The translations under genes were made by a program, and so were the position numbers. 64,000 bases of DNA from Isoptericola cucumis (GTDB lineage: Bacteria > Actinomycetota > Actinomycetes > Actinomycetales > Cellulomonadaceae), in contig NZ_BMDG01000002.1 of assembly GCF_014635665.1 (NCBI RefSeq), positions 310,001 through 374,000 on the forward strand, in the 5' to 3' direction. The notes below the pieces were generated by a model, which was given only the letters and a program-made list of their open reading frames with translations, had not been told where the DNA came from and did not search any database. Positions 36,707 through 45,170 of this stretch are shown here, in pieces (within the stretch, counting starts at the first letter, position 1; each line of letters opens with the position of its first letter).

Positions 36707-37630
36707 TCAGCCATCGGCCGGTCCGCCGGTGGCCTCGCCCGCGGACCTGCCGCGGCGACGCGGCAGCCAGCGGCTGACCCGGGTGCCGCGCGGCGCGGTC
36801 CCGGTGCCGGGCGCGGCGTCCAGGGCCGGCAGGTCGGACGGGCCGGACACGTCGCCCTCGACCACCCGGGGGAAGTGGTCCGGCGGAGGGCCGAAGGCTC
36901 GGCGCGACTGCGCGACCACGCCGTGCCCGAGCGCGCGACCGCCCGCGACGCCCACGACGACGCCGACGCCGAACGGCAGCAGCCGGCCGAGCGCGAGCGA
37001 GCCCTGCTTCGCGACCTGCCGCTTGAGGAACTGGCGCGCGAGCGTCTTGTTGACCCGCTTGATCGTGGTCTGCGGCATCGACGTGAGCAGCACCTTGCCC
37101 CACGCCACGGTCGAGCCGCCGACGGCGTTCTCCACGTCGCGCGCGCCCCTGTCGCCCAGCACCGTCGCCAGCAGCAGGGCGCGGCGGCGCGGCACGTCGT
37201 CGATCTCGATGCCGTGCACGTCGGCGACCGCCAGCGCGAAGGCCGACGACGCGGCGAAGTACGTGGCGACGTCGCCCGTGGTGAGGGCGGTGGCCGCCGC
37301 CGTCCCGACCGCCGGCGCGGCCGCCGCGGCGCCGACCGCGCCGCCCGCCGTCGTCAGCAGCGTCAGGTACTCCCGCTCCAGCAGGCGGATGATCTGCGCG
37401 GGGTCGGCCTCGGGGTTGCGGGCCCGCAACCGGTCCACGTGCCGGTGGATCGACGCCGACGGGATCGTCACGGCCTTGTCGAGGAGCATGTCCAGCAGCG
37501 GCGTCCGCCGGTACGTCAGCCACTCCTCCCGGCGCGCCGAGACCTCGCGGTCGCCGGCACCCGGCTGCGTGCCGTCGTCGCCGCGCACCACCTCGCCGCG
37601 AGCGTCGTCGACCCCGCGGCCGGTGGTCAC
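36707..37630 (-). CDS. Conserved actinobacterial protein, EcsC-like hydrophobic core
   Basis: A 307-residue protein of unknown function. The GTG start at 37630 overlaps the upstream OsmC stop (GTGA), so the two are coupled. The body has an Ala/Gly/Thr-rich hydrophobic stretch (about 92-150; GAVGAAAAAPAVGTAAA, LTTGDVATYFAASSAFALAV), a soluble helical part (KRVNKTLARQFLKRQVAKQG) and a second hydrophobic helix (FGVGVVVGVAGGRALG), then a disordered C-terminal tail. This resembles the EcsC-type membrane-associated proteins, but only loosely. Confidence 0.55.
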   Translation of the reverse strand: MTTGRGVDDARGEVVRGDDGTQPGAGDREVSARREEWLTYRRTPLLDMLLDKAVTIPSASIHRHVDRLRARNPEADPAQIIRLLEREYLTLLTTAGGAVGAAAAAPAVGTAAATALTTGDVATYFAASSAFALAVADVHGIEIDDVPRRRALLLATVLGDRGARDVENAVGGSTVAWGKVLLTSMPQTTIKRVNKTLARQFLKRQVAKQGSLALGRLLPFGVGVVVGVAGGRALGHGVVAQSRRAFGPPPDHFPRVVEGDVSGPSDLPALDAAPGTGTAPRGTRVSRWLPRRRGRSAGEATGGPADG

Positions 37631-38151
37631 GGCCGGCCCCCCGCCGGGTCCCCGTCCCCGCGCGCGGTGTCCGGCGCGGGCGGGTCGAACACTGCCGGCG
37701 GCACCAGCGCACCGGCCTTCAGCGTGCGGCCCACCGTGCAGGCGCGGTCGATCGAGCGCTGCGCGAGCAGGAGCGTCTTGTTGCGTGCCGCCTCGTCGAG
37801 CCCCGACAGGTCGATCTCGAACCGCTCGGTCAGGACCGGGTAGCGGTCCTCGTCCAGGTCCTTCGGGTCCTCGACGCGGATCGTGGTGCGGTAGTCGTCG
37901 CCGAGGACGCGGGCGAACTTCGTGTCGCTGCTCATGCCGGCGCAGGCGGCCAGCGCGATCTTCAGCAGCTCGCCCGGCGTGAAGACGGCGCCCGCCTCGG
38001 CGGGCCCGATCTCCACGCTCGCGCCGCGGGCCGAGTACCCGCGGTAGGTGCGGCTGCCGGTGCGCTCCACCCACAGGGGGTCCGTGGGCGACGGCGTCAC
38101 GGGGGCCTCCGCGTCGGCGGCCGGGGTCTCGGGCGTGGTGTCCTCCGTCAT
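37627..38151 (-). CDS. OsmC-family peroxiredoxin-like protein
   Basis: 174-residue thiol protein. The two redox cysteines of the OsmC/Ohr family are present in ALAACAGMSS and SIDRACTVGRTL. An Ala/Pro/Thr-rich 28-residue N-terminus precedes the core. The family reduces organic hydroperoxides. First gene of a leftward run through the EcsC-like, SRPBCC and aminotransferase genes. Its start is 35 bp from the divergent ECF41-type promoter. Confidence 0.85.
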   Translation of the reverse strand: MTEDTTPETPAADAEAPVTPSPTDPLWVERTGSRTYRGYSARGASVEIGPAEAGAVFTPGELLKIALAACAGMSSDTKFARVLGDDYRTTIRVEDPKDLDEDRYPVLTERFEIDLSGLDEAARNKTLLLAQRSIDRACTVGRTLKAGALVPPAVFDPPAPDTARGDGDPAGGRP

Positions 38152-38185: not shown

Positions 38186-38212
38186 TGTCACATCCGGCCG
38201 TCCCGCTCGGTC
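38186..38212 (+). promoter_or_regulatory. ECF41-type promoter of the NmrA-like reductase gene
   Basis: TGTCACA (38186-38192), 16 bp, then GGTC (38209-38212). ECF41 sigma factors are reported to use TGTCACA-N16-CGTC. The match is 7/7 plus 3/4 at exact spacing, predicting a leader of about 42 nt before the ATG at 38261. Confidence 0.65.
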
Positions 38213-38260
38213 GGGTGGGTGGCAGGCGGCCACGGGCCGCACCCAGGAGAGGAGAACGTC

Positions 38261-39013
38261 ATGAAGATCGTCGTCGTCGGTGGGACAGGCCTCATCGGCA
38301 GCCAGACCATCGAGTTCCTGCGCGACGCCGGGCACGACGCCGTCGCGGCCGCGCCCAGCACCGGCGTGGACACGCTGACCGGCCAGGGGGTGGACGAGGC
38401 GCTCGCTGGCGCCGACGTCGTGGTGGACGTGTCGAACTCGCCGTCCTTCGCGGACGACGACGTGCTGCGGTTCTTCACCACCTCCACGCGCACCCTGCTC
38501 GACGCCGAGGCGCGCGCGGGGGTGCGCCACCACGTCGCCCTCTCGATCGTCGGCGCCGACCGGACGCCCGACTCCGGGTACCTGCGCGCGAAGGTGGCCC
38601 AGGAGCAGCTGATCCGCGAGTCCGTCGCCGGGTGGTCGATCGTCCGTGCCACGCAGTTCTTCGAGTTCGCCGGCAGGATCGCGGACGGCGCGACCGTCGA
38701 CGGCCGGGTGCGCATCCCGCCGGTGGCGTTCCAGCCGGTCGCGTCCGTGGACGTCGCGCGCACCGTGGCCGAGGTCGCGGCGGGGGAGCCCCGTGGCGGC
38801 GTCGTGGAGCTGGCCGGCCCGGAGCGCCTGCGCTTCGACGAGTTCGTCCGGGCGGCGCTCGCGGCCCGCGGGGACGAGCGCGACGTCGTGGCCGATCCCG
38901 CCGCGCCGTACTTCGGGGCGGTCCTCGCGGAGGGCTCGCTCGTGCCCGCCGGGGAGCACCGCCGCGGCGCCGTCACGGCGGGCGACTTCGCGGCCGCGCA
39001 GCGCCCGGCATGA
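38261..39013 (+). CDS. NmrA-like NAD(P)-binding reductase/epimerase (ECF41 partner)
   Basis: 250-residue atypical short-chain dehydrogenase. The N-terminal GGTGLIGSQ (G-x-x-G-x-x-G) binds NAD(P); VDVSNSPSF and HHVALSIVGADR follow as in NmrA/SDR proteins, and YLRAKVAQEQLI holds the Tyr-x3-Lys. ATG 38261 has AGGAGAGGAG upstream. Such epimerase/reductase genes are the usual neighbours of ECF41 sigma factors (the COE group), and a fitting promoter lies upstream. Substrate unknown. Confidence 0.85.
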   Translation: MKIVVVGGTGLIGSQTIEFLRDAGHDAVAAAPSTGVDTLTGQGVDEALAGADVVVDVSNSPSFADDDVLRFFTTSTRTLLDAEARAGVRHHVALSIVGADRTPDSGYLRAKVAQEQLIRESVAGWSIVRATQFFEFAGRIADGATVDGRVRIPPVAFQPVASVDVARTVAEVAAGEPRGGVVELAGPERLRFDEFVRAALAARGDERDVVADPAAPYFGAVLAEGSLVPAGEHRRGAVTAGDFAAAQRPA

Positions 39014-39028
39014 CACCCGGCCCGGGCG

Positions 39029-39034
39029 TAGCGT
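39029..39034 (+). promoter_or_regulatory. -10 box of a probable leaderless promoter for the sigma factor
   Basis: TAGCGT ends 6 nt before the ATG at 39041, within the 27-bp gap after the reductase gene. It gives the sigma gene a housekeeping promoter in addition to read-through. Confidence 0.45.
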
Positions 39035-39040
39035 GACCGC

Positions 39041-39964
39041 ATGACGTCGCGCCCGCCCGCGCCCGAGCGCCCCGGCGTCGGCGAGGCCACCACCCTCGAC
39101 GACACCGGGGCGCTCGACACGTTCCTCGCCGTGCGGCCGCAGCTGTTCGGCATCGCGTACCGCATGCTGGGTGGCGTCGCGGAGGCGGAGGACGTCGTCC
39201 AGGACGCCTGGATCCGCTGGCAGGGGACCGACCGGACCGTCGTGGCGAACCCGGCGGCGTTCCTCACCACCGTGACGACCCGGCTCGCGATCAACGCGGC
39301 GACGTCGGCGCGCGCCCGGCGGGAGACGTACGTCGGGCCGTGGCTGCCGGAGCCGGTGGACACCTCCGACGACCCGGCGCTGGGCGCCGAGCGGGCGGAG
39401 GCGCTCGAGACGGCGACCCTGCTGCTCATGGAGCACCTCACGCCGGTGGAGCGCGCGGTGTACGTGCTGCGCGAGGCGTTCGGGTACCCGCACCGGAAGG
39501 TCGCGGAGATCCTCGACCTCAGCGAGGCGAACGCCCGGCAGCTCGCCCGTCGCGCCCGCGACCGGCTCGGCCGCCGGGAGGCCGTGCCCGTGGACGCGGG
39601 GGAGCACCGTCGCCTGCTCGACGAGTTCGTCGCCGCCGCGCACGAGGGCGACCTGGCGCGCTTCGAGCGCTACCTCGCGGACGGCGTCGTCGCGCGGCCC
39701 GACGGCGGCGGGCGGGTGCACGCGTCGCGTGTCGAGCTCGTGGGGAGGGCGCGGGTGTCGCTGTTCTTCGAGAACGTGTGGCGCAAGTACTGGGACGCCG
39801 GCCGGGTGCGGTCCGTCGAGGCCAACGGGCTGCCCGCGATCGTCGTCGACCTCGACGGCGCCCCGTTCGCGCTCGTGTCGCTCGACGTCGTCGACGGCCG
39901 GGTCGAGCACGTGTACGTGCAGGTCAACCCCGACAAGCTCGGCGGGTACACCGCCGCGGGCTGA
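39041..39964 (+). CDS. ECF41-group RNA polymerase sigma factor (SigJ-like) with SnoaL-like extension
   Basis: A 307-residue sigma factor. Sigma region 2 (LFGIAYRMLGGVAEAEDVVQ, DAWIRW) and region 4 (LTPVERAVYVLREAFGYPHR, SEANARQLARRARDR) are joined by a linker with WLPEP, the hallmark of ECF41. The C-terminal ~110 residues are a SnoaL-like domain with DGGGR and the terminal NPDKL motif. ECF41 proteins have no anti-sigma gene; the extension itself tunes activity. Its two neighbours are of the COE type and each has a matching promoter. Confidence 0.93.
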   Translation: MTSRPPAPERPGVGEATTLDDTGALDTFLAVRPQLFGIAYRMLGGVAEAEDVVQDAWIRWQGTDRTVVANPAAFLTTVTTRLAINAATSARARRETYVGPWLPEPVDTSDDPALGAERAEALETATLLLMEHLTPVERAVYVLREAFGYPHRKVAEILDLSEANARQLARRARDRLGRREAVPVDAGEHRRLLDEFVAAAHEGDLARFERYLADGVVARPDGGGRVHASRVELVGRARVSLFFENVWRKYWDAGRVRSVEANGLPAIVVDLDGAPFALVSLDVVDGRVEHVYVQVNPDKLGGYTAAG

Positions 39965-39993
39965 ACCCGCGGCGGCGCGGCCGGGCGTCGTCG

Positions 39994-41388
39994 TCAGGCG
40001 GCGCGGACCGGCGTGCTCGTGCTCGTGCCCTCCTCCGCGGGGGCGGGCGCCTCGGCGACCCGCACCGGTGGGGCCGCGGCCGCGAACGCGGCACGTGGCG
40101 TCTGCACCGAGGCCAGCGACACGACGTCCCGGCCGAACAGCGCGGCCGTGAGCCAGACCGCCGCCACGCGGGCCTTGCGCTCCCACGTCGGGATGGCGAG
40201 CACGTGGTATCCGCGGTGCATGAGCCACGCGAGGCGGCCGCGCACCACGATCCCGCGGTACTGGAAGATCCCGGAGCCCAGGCCGAGCGTCGCGACCACG
40301 CCGAGGCTGCCGTGCACGTACGGGCGGGTCGCCCGGCCGCGGCGGGCGGCGACGAGGTTGCGCGCCAGCCGACGCCCCTGGCGCACGGCGTGCTGCGCGT
40401 TGGGGACGGCGAGCGCCCCCGGCCGCGGCACGGCGAGGTCGGGCACCGCCGCGCCGTCGCCCGCCGCCCACGCGTCGGCCACGGGCGCGCCGTCGGTGCC
40501 CACCCGCAGGTCGGGGCGCACGACGACGTACCCGCGGTCGTCCACCGGCATGTCGGTGTGGGTCGCGACCACGGGGTTGGCCGCGTTGCCCGCCGTCCAC
40601 ACGAGCAGGCCGGAGGGGAAGGACTCGCCGCTCGAGAGCGTGACGACGCCCCCCGCGGCCGACACCAGGCCGGTCTCGAGGTGGACGCGTGCGCCGCGCC
40701 GCTCGAGCCGTTCGGCGACCCAGCGGCCCTGCGGCTCGGTCACCTCGGGCAGGATCCGGGCGCCCCGCTCGACGAGGTGGAACGCCGGCTCCGACGCGTC
40801 GATCTCCGGGTAGCGACGCAGCAGGTCGTGGGCGAGGGACAGCAGCTCGGCGAAGCCCTCCACGCCGGAGAAGCCGCCGCCGACGAACGTCACGGTGAGC
40901 AGCCGCGCGCGCTCGGGCCCGGCGGGCAGGCTCGCCGCCCGGTCGAAGGAGGTCAGGAGCCGGTCGCGGATCGCGACGGCCTCCTCCACGTGCTTCATCC
41001 CGATGGCGTGCTCCGCGACGCCCGGCACGGGGAAGACGCGGGTGACGGCGCCGGCGGTGACGACCACGGTGTCGTAGTCCAGCCGGAACGGCTCCCCGGA
41101 GCGCGGCCGCACGACGACGACGCGGGCGGCGTGGTCGATGCGCTCGACGGCGCCGTCGACGAGCCGCGTGCGGCGCAGGTGGCGCCGGTGCGAGACCGCG
41201 GCGTGCCGTGCCTCGACGGACCCGGCGACGACCTCGGGAAGGAACGGCTGGTAGGTCATGTACGGCCGCGGGTCGACGAGGACGAGCTCGACCTCGCCGC
41301 GCCGCAGCTCGCGCCGCAGGCCCTTCTTGAGCTCCCGGGCCGCCGTGAACCCGGCGTAGCCGCCACCGACGATGACGATGCGTCCCAT
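39994..41388 (-). CDS. NDH-2-like FAD/NAD(P)H oxidoreductase (ECF41 partner)
   Basis: 464-residue flavoprotein of the type II NADH dehydrogenase family: FAD-binding IVIVGGGYAGFTAA at the N-terminus, NAD-binding TVTFVGGGFSGVEGFAEL in the middle, and AWAAGDGAAVPD as the second FAD contact. A C-terminal amphipathic or transmembrane segment (about 400-430) would hold it to the membrane for quinone reduction. ATG 41388 is chosen over GTG 41391 since AGGAGG is five bases away. It converges on the sigma gene and has its own ECF41-type promoter. Confidence 0.88.
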   Translation of the reverse strand: MGRIVIVGGGYAGFTAARELKKGLRRELRRGEVELVLVDPRPYMTYQPFLPEVVAGSVEARHAAVSHRRHLRRTRLVDGAVERIDHAARVVVVRPRSGEPFRLDYDTVVVTAGAVTRVFPVPGVAEHAIGMKHVEEAVAIRDRLLTSFDRAASLPAGPERARLLTVTFVGGGFSGVEGFAELLSLAHDLLRRYPEIDASEPAFHLVERGARILPEVTEPQGRWVAERLERRGARVHLETGLVSAAGGVVTLSSGESFPSGLLVWTAGNAANPVVATHTDMPVDDRGYVVVRPDLRVGTDGAPVADAWAAGDGAAVPDLAVPRPGALAVPNAQHAVRQGRRLARNLVAARRGRATRPYVHGSLGVVATLGLGSGIFQYRGIVVRGRLAWLMHRGYHVLAIPTWERKARVAAVWLTAALFGRDVVSLASVQTPRAAFAAAAPPVRVAEAPAPAEEGTSTSTPVRAA

Positions 41389-41431
41389 CACTGCCTCCTG
41401 TGCCGCGCCCTGCGGGCGCTCTCACTACGTC

Positions 41432-41458
41432 GACCGCGCAGCGCCGGGCGACGTGACA
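41432..41458 (-). promoter_or_regulatory. ECF41-type promoter of the NDH-2-like gene
   Basis: On the minus strand: TGTCACG, 16 bp, GGTC. It has the same spacing and the same -10 as the promoter at 38186-38212, so the pair defines a local consensus TGTCACR-N16-GGTCG. Predicted leader about 37 nt. Confidence 0.65.
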
Positions 41459-41477
41459 CCTGATCGGTGTGACGTCG
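41449..41477. promoter_or_regulatory. 12-bp inverted repeat over the NDH-2 -35 element
   Basis: CGACGTGACACC, 5 bp, GGTGTGACGTCG: arms match except for one central position. It includes the -35 of the minus-strand promoter and lies 34 bp before the thyA -10, so a regulator bound here could act on either gene. Confidence 0.4.
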
Positions 41478-41523: not shown

Positions 41524-42345
41524 ATGAGCGCGCCCACGCCGTCGAGCCCCGTCCCCACGCCGTACGAGGACCTCCTGCGCGACGTGCTGGAGCACGGCAC
41601 GCACAAGGACGACCGCACCGGGACGGGCACGCGCAGCGTCTTCGGCCGGCAGCTCCGCTACGACCTGCAGCAGGGTTTCCCGCTGATCACGACCAAGCGG
41701 GTGCACCTCAAGTCGATCGCCTACGAGCTGCTGTGGTTCCTGCGCGGCGACAGCAACGTGCGCTGGCTGCAGGAGCACGGCGTGAGCATCTGGGACGAGT
41801 GGGCCTCCCCCCAGGGCGAGCTCGGCCCGGTGTACGGCGTGCAGTGGCGCTCGTGGCCGACGCCGGACGGCGAGCACGTCGACCAGATCGCGGGCGTCAT
41901 CGACCAGATCAAGGTCAACCCCGACTCGCGGCGCCTGATCGTCAGCGCCTGGAACGTGGCCGAGCTGGCGGACATGGCGCTGCCGCCCTGCCACCTGCTG
42001 TTCCAGTTCTACGTCGCCGACGGCAGGCTCAGCTGCCAGCTCTACCAGCGCTCGGCGGACCTCTTCCTCGGGGTGCCGTTCAACATCGCCTCGTACGCGC
42101 TGCTCACGCACATGGTGGCCGCGCAGACCGGGCTCGAGGTGGGCGAGTTCGTGTGGACCGGCGGCGACTGCCACGTCTACGACAACCACGTCGAGCAGGT
42201 GCGCACCCAGCTGGAGCGCGAGCCCTACCCGTACCCGACGCTGCGCCTCGCGCCGCGCGAGTCGATCTTCGACTACGCCTTCGAGGACATCGAGGTCGAG
42301 AACTACCAGCACCACCCGGGCATCAAGGCCCCGGTCGCCGTCTGA
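41524..42345 (+). CDS. thyA: Thymidylate synthase
   Basis: Converts dUMP to dTMP with methylene-THF as methyl donor and reductant. 273 residues, the usual length. Conserved: [26 protein letters not shown], the catalytic cysteine in [32 protein letters not shown] and the dUMP-binding [13 protein letters not shown]. It is followed by folA, which regenerates the THF used here; 17 bp separate the two genes. Confidence 0.97.
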
Positions 42346-43557: not shown

Positions 43558-43754
43558 GCCAGCCCGCGTCGTCGGGACGCCAGCGCATAGTCGGTCGCCG
43601 CCGCCGTGCACCCTCTCCAGGAGCGACTTGCACCCTGTCGGGCGCGCCGGCACCCACTCTGAGGCCGACGGCACCCATGCGCCTCCCCGCGCGCCCTGGG
43701 TGTCCTCTGGCCTGCGCGAACGTGGTCATACCACCACTTCAACAGGAGGAGACC

Positions 43755-45170
43755 ATGAAGACCACGAGGACCACCAAGATGCTCCGCACCGGTACGTGCT
43801 TCGCCGCGGGGGCGGCCCTCGCGCTCGCCCCGGGCGTCGCGACGGCCGTGGGCCAGGAGTCCGGGACCGGAGCGGACGGCGTCGGGGGTGGCCTCGAGGT
43901 CGAGACGGCCCCTCCGGCCGAGGAGACCACCGAGACGGAGCAGCCGTCGGTGGAGCCGGAGCCGGTGGAGCCTGCGCCGGTCGAGCCTGCGCCGGTCGAG
44001 ACGGCTCCTGTCGAGCCTGCGCCGGTCGAGACGGCTCCTGTCGAGCCTGCGCCGGTCGAGCCTGAGCCGGTCGAGCCCGAGCCCGTCGAGCCCGCGCCGG
44101 TCGACACGGCTCCTGTCGAGCCCGCGCCGGCGGAGACGGCTCCTGCCGCGGACGACGCGGAGGCCGCGACCCCGGACAAGGGCGAACCGGCCACCGAGAC
44201 GTCGAAGCCCGCGGCACCGAAGCCGGAGACGTCGGAGCCGAAGGCCTCGACGACGCAGAAGGCCGACGAGCCCGCCGGTGCGGGCCCCGGGATGTCGAAC
44301 GGCGGCTTCGTCGACGGCAACGACAAGTATCCGAACCCGGTCGACAAGATCGACGGGGACAGCTGGGAGGGCGCCGGCATTCCCGGTGTGACCTTCACGT
44401 TCACGAACAAGGGGACGATCGTCCTGACCTTCGGACCCGAGTTCAACCCGGAGACGCCGATCAACACCATCGTCCTGAAGGCCGGCAGCGGGCACGTCGT
44501 CTACACGGCCGACCGCCCGTTCCGGGCCGGGGACGTCGTGACCCTCACGACGGACCTGCTGCTCGAGGGCAAGGACATCAGCCACGTGACGTTCTACCCC
44601 GGTGGCGAGGACCCGACCGACCCGACGGACCCGACGGACCCGACGGACCCGACGGACCCGACGGACCCGACGGACCCGACGGACCCGACGGACCCGACGG
44701 ACCCGACGGACCCGACGGACCCGACGGACCCGACGGACCCGACGGACCCGACGGATCCCACGGACCCGACGGACCCGACGGACCCGACGGACCCGACGGA
44801 CCCGACGGACCCGACGGACCCGACGGACCCGACGGACCCGGTGGACCCGGTGGACCCGGTGGACCCGGTGGACCCGGTGGACCCGGCTGACCCCACGGTG
44901 CCGACCGACCCGACCGACCCGGCGAACCTGCCGACGTCGGACGTCACGACGGTGGCCCTGGACGTCGACACCATCGGCGCTCCGAGCCTGACCGAACCCG
45001 TGGCGGCACCGGTGGCCGAATCGGCGGCAGTGGTCGAGACGGACGGCGACGCACTCCCGCGGACCGGCCCGGACGGTGCCGGTGCGATGGCCGCGGCGGC
45101 CGCCGGACTGGTCGCCCTGGGCGGCCTGAGCCTGGCCGGGGCGCGCCGGGCGCGTCACGACGCGGACTGA
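43755..45170 (+). CDS. LPXTG surface protein with Pro-rich and (DPT)n stalk
   Basis: 471-residue wall-anchored protein. The signal peptide (residues 1-34) follows ATG 43755, which has AGGAGGAG upstream. Then come a Pro/Glu/Val repeat region ([10 protein letters not shown] units, about 70-135), a short folded domain (about 175-285, [17 protein letters not shown] and [12 protein letters not shown]), and 25 Asp-Pro-Thr plus 5 Asp-Pro-Val triplets. The end is LPRTG, a hydrophobic helix and RRARHDAD, a standard sortase signal. The stalk should extend the small domain beyond the wall. Ligand unknown. Confidence 0.88.
44610..44897 (+). repeat. 9-bp in-frame tandem repeat coding (Asp-Pro-Thr)25-(Asp-Pro-Val)5
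   Basis: Twenty-five units of the 9-mer GACCCGACG (first unit GACCCGACC; one other synonymous variant near 44755), then five GACCCGGTG units and two degenerate ones. All unit changes keep the frame, so slippage alters stalk length only. Confidence 0.95.

Follow-up and report, generated by a model that had tools for sequence, protein, structure and literature searches.

An ECF41 sigma factor gene flanked by two enzyme genes

The window analysed here, 64,000 nucleotides of the 4.46 Mb genome of Isoptericola cucumis (contig NZ_BMDG01000002.1, positions 310,001 to 374,000), contains a gene for a sigma factor of the ECF41 group that lies between two enzyme genes, one for an atypical short-chain dehydrogenase/reductase (SDR) and one for a type II NADH dehydrogenase-like oxidoreductase (NDH). 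Each enzyme gene is preceded by the same promoter-like motif and, from comparative genomics, control of both promoters by this sigma factor is very likely. The features of the locus, with the two outer neighbours last, are:

38186..38212, + strand: putative ECF41-type promoter of the SDR-ECF41 operon (–35 TGTCACA 38186-38192, N16, –10 GGTC 38209-38212)
38261..39013, + strand: SDR gene, 250 amino acids, first in the presumed operon; atypical SDR, NAD_binding_10/Epimerase/NmrA-like
39041..39964, + strand: ECF41 sigma factor gene, 307 amino acids, with a fused C-terminal SnoaL-like domain; starts 27 bp past the SDR gene
39994..41388, – strand: NDH gene, type II NADH dehydrogenase-like FAD oxidoreductase, convergent to the sigma factor gene
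41432..41458, – strand: putative ECF41-type promoter of the NDH gene (–35 TGTCACG 41458-41452, N16, –10 GGTC 41435-41432)
37627..38151, – strand: OsmC-like gene, a divergent neighbour kept with the locus (PF02566, E 1.1e-4, 22.9 bits, below the cut-off of 27.5)
41524..42345, + strand: thymidylate synthase gene, a neighbour only

Judged from its matches, the gene at 39041-39964 is a full-length SigJ/ECF41 homologue. Its product scores 279 bits against the SigJ model PRK09636, above the cut-off of 271, and 321.2 bits (E 5e-96) against NCBIfam TIGR02957, slightly below the cut-off of 323.25; it aligns over residues 26-302 with the SigJ structure PDB 5xe7 (E 5.9e-41). ECF-type sigma-70 regions 2 and 4 are both present (PF04542, E 2.1e-12; PF08281, E 1.2e-11; TIGR02937 above its cut-off), and the C-terminal SnoaL-like extension of the ECF41 type, about 100 amino acids, is covered by the 5xe7 alignment and by PRK09636, with PF12680 SnoaL_2 at E 9.8e-4, below its curated cut-off. 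The linker between sigma2 and sigma4 contains WLPEP as GPWLPEPVD. An earlier note on this DNA had named WLPEP, DGGGR and NPDKL as marks of ECF41, and all three are visible in the translation. The published description of the group (PMC3426412) mentions three conserved motifs and names WLPEP as a hallmark; the strings DGGGR and NPDKL do not occur in its main text. None of the neighbours identified by Pfam scans resembles an anti-sigma factor gene.

The SDR product matches PF13460 (E 2.8e-10) and PF01370 (E 4.8e-6), both above the cut-off, and NmrA (E 5.8e-4) below it; its solved relatives in a PDB search were weak only. The NDH product has the two-dinucleotide FAD oxidoreductase fold (Pyr_redox_2, PF07992, E 1.7e-37), and its best PDB matches are of the NDH-2 type (best E 6.1e-33), the nearest solved relatives being NADH:quinone reductases. 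It is thus type II NADH dehydrogenase-like, with a predicted NADH:quinone activity; ATG at 41388 is a more likely start codon than GTG at 41391. Both neighbours of the sigma factor gene are therefore of the oxidoreductase/epimerase type, as the earlier note had proposed, and the gene has the adjacent carboxymuconolactone decarboxylase/oxidoreductase/epimerase (COE) partner typical of ECF41.

Matching promoter motifs in the window and in the genome

The earlier note had described two sites of identical spacing and identical –10, and both lie where it placed them. Between the motif and the start codon lie 48 nt for SDR and 43 nt for NDH. Both sites have the spacing of the published ECF41 promoter, TGTCACA-N16(±1)-CGTC, and its –35, in one case with the final A replaced by G; the –10 is GGTC, not CGTC. 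Transcription of the SDR operon is predicted to start at about 38219-38221, because the corresponding motif of Sinorhizobium meliloti ends 9 nt before a mapped start (PMC3616915); the predicted start for NDH is at about 41423-41425.

TGTCACR-N16-GGTC matches the window twice, where 0.13 matches were expected, and one of 100 shuffles reached two. Over the whole genome, TGTCACR-N16-SGTC has six matches (one for the reversed control), and the four outside the locus all lie inside open frames of 407-891 codons, as judged from open frames alone, in high-G+C DNA that yields such frames easily. These four were set aside as further members of the regulon in this genome. A chance origin of both sites is very unlikely, because they precede exactly the two genes that flank the ECF41 gene. 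The site scan of the locus found no TGTCAC-type site directly 5' of the sigma factor gene, and none in the window directed towards the OsmC-like gene; one relative (L041) has such a site before OsmC, with a spacing one base longer.

Further sequence features were seen around the two promoters. Seen in the window (41467-41473, – strand) and in L037-L041, another GTCACAC precedes the GTCAC of the NDH –35 by 16 bp in five of the seven genomes carrying the locus, with GTCACTC at 15 bp in a sixth; before the SDR –35 it occurs in three of the seven, at a distance of 16-17 bp. It is possibly an activator site. In both leaders (38219-38260 and 41388-41425) inverted repeats lie in the stretch from the predicted start to the ribosome site; many other SDR and NDH leaders have them as well, those of other genera with different sequences. 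Leader hairpins were nevertheless set aside as unproven: the mean z was only –0.6 for 37 SDR leaders and –1.0 for 31 NDH leaders, and pair counts in eight Cellulomonas-like SDR leaders, made with a structure in which one pair fell on a gapped column, gave no excess over shuffles.

Elsewhere in the window, 43677-45170 (+ strand) encodes a protein with long TDPTDP repeats and an LPRTG-like C-terminal end, which we take to be a sorting signal, so that the product is probably a wall-anchored surface protein.

Conservation within the genus

The genus set comprised 18 Isoptericola-like genomes, this one and 17 others, of which six carry the locus, with sigma factor homologues of 84-88% identity in five and 77% in the sixth. 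These six relatives share the gene set and order from an aminotransferase gene to thymidylate synthase, except that in one of them (L042, genome G007) two of the outer genes are swapped and about 1 kb is added between OsmC and SDR. In all seven genomes a motif stands at the orthologous position before both SDR and NDH, and NGTCACR-N16-GGTC is present in all 14 promoters. The first base of the –35 of the NDH promoter varies between species (T, C or A). Pairwise identity among these promoters is 0.92-0.95 in the –35 and 0.48-0.51 in the spacer; the rows were chosen by a pattern that fixes GGTC, so that the –10 identity of 1.0 is given by construction. The proposal of a mini-regulon of two targets with matching promoters is supported by these counts, seemingly with no further member in this genome.

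An extended motif, GTCACR-N16-GGTC-N5-RGTG, has 23 matches in the 18 genomes: the 14 promoters, one at L043, where it precedes an SDR-like gene at another ECF41-SDR locus, and eight elsewhere, to be compared with 10 for the reversed control. Among these eight, one is positioned as a promoter, before a carboxymuconolactone decarboxylase gene in G011. Apart from this case, the extended motif marks the two promoters of each genome in the genus. Three further sigma factor genes of 71-72% identity (L043-L045, in G006, G012 and as a second gene in G007) have different surroundings, with a convergent SDR-like gene (43-46%) some distance off and sites with GGTC, TGTC and TGTC, respectively.

Every one of the 18 genomes has an NDH homologue of 46-49% identity. 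Close homologues (at least 82%) are found only in the seven genomes with the locus, and two genomes have one of 68-70%. By this comparison, the NDH of the locus and the 46-49% homologue are different genes, the former being a second NDH-2 paralogue. One genome (L153, L274; G009:C22) has this paralogue in a further copy (85%); the copy carries CGTCACG-N16-GGTC, and an ECF41-like gene of 45-46% identity lies about 6 kb away.

Rearrangement and co-occurrence across the family

We extended the comparison to 221 genomes of the family, in which sigma factor homologues were accepted at E≤1e-70 and NDH homologues at E≤1e-150, with at most 10 or 7 candidates scored per genome. The sigma factor was found in at least 52 of the 221 genomes and NDH in at least 61; 47 genomes have both, 5 the sigma factor only, 14 NDH only and 155 neither (Fisher p 1.3e-29, uncorrected for kinship).

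Gene order differs between genera, and the motifs are retained. In the Cellulomonas-like loci L121-L128 the sigma factor gene is followed by NDH with its own promoter; in L129-L133 NDH comes first; and in L139, L148 and L150-L152 the SDR gene is convergent to the sigma factor gene. Several Cellulosimicrobium-like genomes have NDH at a separate place (L158-L160; G130, G134). In the single-contig genomes G130 and G134 it lies about 1.33 Mb from the sigma factor homologue, still with TGTCACG-N16-GGTC, and unlinked NDH genes with NGTCAC-N17-NGTC were found in L158-L160 and in G130, G133 and G134.

For a count over the family loci (L037-L046 and L113-L164) we took homologues of at least 55% identity and sites at most 140 bp upstream, leaving the bases before GTCAC and GTC free; of the two pieces into which the NDH gene of L156 is broken one was omitted, and no row was lost at locus ends. 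A site precedes 35 of 39 SDR homologues, every one of them TGTCAC-N17-GGTC, and all 36 NDH homologues, where 33 are GGTC, two TGTC and one AGTC, the non-GGTC sites being those of L144, L154 and L155.

Additional targets appear in some members. Four Cellulosimicrobium-like loci contain an alpha/beta-hydrolase gene close to NDH, on the opposite strand, that is assigned to Abhydrolase_3 by a Pfam scan of the L156 protein and has a TGTCAC-N17-GGTC of its own; it is likely a third target there. In L119 and L156 this gene diverges directly from NDH, and in L114 and L117 it lies some 1.7 kb past NDH. The decarboxylase gene of G011 (G011:C10; L163 5032), which encodes a PF02627 protein with NGCAWC and stands behind TGTCACG-N16-GGTC, is of a classic ECF41 target type; in the 10 kb around it, the best match to any of five ECF41 queries was no better than E 0.02.

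The –10 element at ECF41 loci

The earlier note had taken GGTC for an altered and possibly lineage-specific –10, a view that a survey of named loci bore out only in part. This survey covered 80 ECF41 loci of 50-88% identity to this sigma factor, the best 80 of 533 and hence biased to near relatives; sites were accepted anywhere in the locus if a ribosome site and an open frame came after them, at spacings of 12-22 after TGTCAC. At spacing 17 there were 91 sites at 61 loci, comprising 68 GGTC, 22 TGTC, one CGTC and no AGTC. The ten remaining spacings gave 40 sites combined, 24 of them at spacing 12, which we ascribe to a match with the conserved CTGTC before the –10. With one label per locus, taken from sites no more than 3.5 kb from the sigma factor gene, the first base was G at 46, T at 11, both at 2 and C at 1, and 20 loci had no site. 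By these counts GGTC predominates among actinobacterial ECF41 loci, the sigma factor tree shows frequent exchange of G and T, and the same-genus loci L044 and L045 (sigma factors of 70-72%) have TGTC; on the named loci and the repeated G/T changes we rejected a narrow lineage-specific –10. Conservation extends beyond the two boxes, to CTG and CC before the –10 and to a G seven bases past it; this G fits the S. meliloti start mapped 9 nt past the motif (PMC3616915).

Because 90 of the 91 spacing-17 sites are GGTC or TGTC, KGTC is the usual –10 at these mostly actinobacterial loci. The published CGTC derives from 285 putative sites with a spacer of 16±1, from 373 proteins of which 252 are actinobacterial (PMC3426412); since most of those proteins are actinobacterial, phylum alone fails to explain the difference, which may come from other ECF41 clades or from the looser spacing. 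Twenty-one other ECF41 loci of the genus, scanned with 1.5 kb flanks, include 14 without a site and seven with one, three CGTC (L016, which is L046; L019; L023) and four TGTC. With the CGTC-type ECF41 of L046 as query, matches at E≤1e-80 came from only 2 of 220 genomes, a number too small for comparing clades. In Promicromonospora-like genomes NDH has mostly TGTC and SDR GGTC. Target prediction for actinobacterial ECF41 sites should gain from a KGTC –10, because an exact CGTC search misses all but one of the spacing-17 sites counted.

Proposed control of the two enzymes and competing explanations

We favour the reading in which a SigJ-like sigma factor of the ECF41 group, restrained by the SnoaL-like domain fused to it, drives the SDR-ECF41 operon and the convergent NDH gene through NGTCACR-N16-GGTC, and put its probability at about 0.83. 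The genomes offer for it the motifs, the gene order, the conservation of the orthologues, the loss of linkage without loss of the motif and the co-occurrence of the genes. By analogy with published ECF41 proteins, the SnoaL-like domain would hold the activity of the sigma factor, which, once active, would direct RNA polymerase to the NGTCACR-N16-GGTC promoters. In this genome two transcripts would result, one of the SDR-ECF41 operon, with both genes cotranscribed, and one of the NDH-2-like gene; transcription of SDR-ECF41 would make the sigma factor autoregulated and close a positive feedback loop. More speculatively, the SnoaL-like domain might bind a small redox-active or quinone-like molecule as the signal, and SDR and NDH might restore the NAD(P)H/quinone balance; redox stress linked to NAD(P)H and quinones would be the most natural reading of both enzymes.

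Several observations weigh against this picture. This genome has four further matches to the sigma factor, and their products could also recognise these sites. Of the 39 SDR genes counted, four have no motif, three of them (L129-L131) being downstream of NDH on the same strand. ECF41 occurs without this NDH in five genomes, and L154 and L155, two of the 36 NDH genes counted, come from genomes without a close sigma factor homologue. Among the 14 NDH-only genomes, seven keep the NGTCAC-N17-NGTC site at NDH, six have CTCACA-N16-CGTC before it (L250-L252, L254-L256) and one has neither; since NDH-only genomes retain sites of these kinds, another sigma factor can probably serve NDH. In the six with CTCACA-N16-CGTC, NDH looks as if it had been rewired to a different sigma factor.

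These points bear chiefly on the explanation that the sites are genuine promoters of the ECF type whose main reader is a paralogous ECF41 or a related sigma factor, the linked one being one input among several. The further sigma matches, the TGTCAC common to ECF41 targets generally and the NDH sites kept without a close sigma factor homologue speak for it. However, the motif pair stands at the sigma factor gene in every genome with the locus, the gene set co-occurs, and the more distant ECF41 loci of the genus that have a site show CGTC or TGTC; we consider it unlikely, and infer that the linked sigma factor, rather than a paralogue, reads the sites. It is highly improbable that the SDR-ECF41 operon is the sole target and the NDH site a chance match in high-G+C DNA: the variable first base of its –35 would agree with chance, but no NDH homologue in the family loci lacks the site, unlinked ones included, and nearly all have GGTC. 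That GGTC is a new promoter specificity of the lineage, separating its ECF41 from paralogues in the same cell, would accord with the uniform GGTC at SDR, its near uniformity at NDH and the TGTC or CGTC of the other ECF41 loci of the genus; the majority of GGTC across actinobacterial loci, the G/T changes on the sigma factor tree, the TGTC of L044 and L045 and the mixed –10 elements of Promicromonospora-like genomes speak against this, and we hold it to be quite unlikely.

A broader formulation is tentative, with odds somewhat short of even: the ECF41 factors of the family might run a small dispersed regulon from NGTCACR-N16-KGTC promoters, comprising SDR, the dedicated NDH-2 paralogue and, in some members, the alpha/beta-hydrolase or an unlinked carboxymuconolactone decarboxylase, with the SnoaL-like domain sensing a quinone-like compound that these enzymes clear. 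For the signal and purpose of ECF41, two conserved enzyme targets whose promoters are kept after loss of linkage narrow the search to a joint function of the SDR and the NDH-2-like enzyme.

Comparison with known ECF41 systems

In the published ECF41 model (PMC3426412), the C-terminal extension controls the sigma factor and the neighbouring gene is the target; deletion and overexpression gave no reproducible phenotype in two species, and no oxidative stress phenotype. No description of a GGTC –10 or of a two-target ECF41 locus in these genera was found among the literature matches listed, which does not prove its absence. The Mycobacterium tuberculosis SigJ of PDB 5xe7 is a homologue of this sigma factor over residues 26-302, SnoaL-like domain included. 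The S. meliloti RpoE9 promoter (PMC3616915), TGTCACA-N16-CGTC, differs in the C at the first base of its –10, and one operon is named in the passages on it.

The ECF41 systems of Bacillus licheniformis and Rhodobacter sphaeroides (PMC3426412) share with this locus the fused C-terminal extension, the WLPEP linker, a COE-class neighbour, the TGTCACA –35 with 16 bp spacing and a COE-ECF operon led by the promoter. An order of sigma factor then convergent COE gene, as for the sigma factor and NDH here, accounts for 9 of the 373 cases there. Unlike those systems, this locus has two separate target promoters, kept in relatives when unlinked, with GGTC as the –10; several conserved targets, where the published view has one, set it apart. 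In kind it is an ordinary ECF41 locus. Its two-target regulon is unusually clear and well conserved, and the promoter consensus is usefully corrected by it and its relatives.

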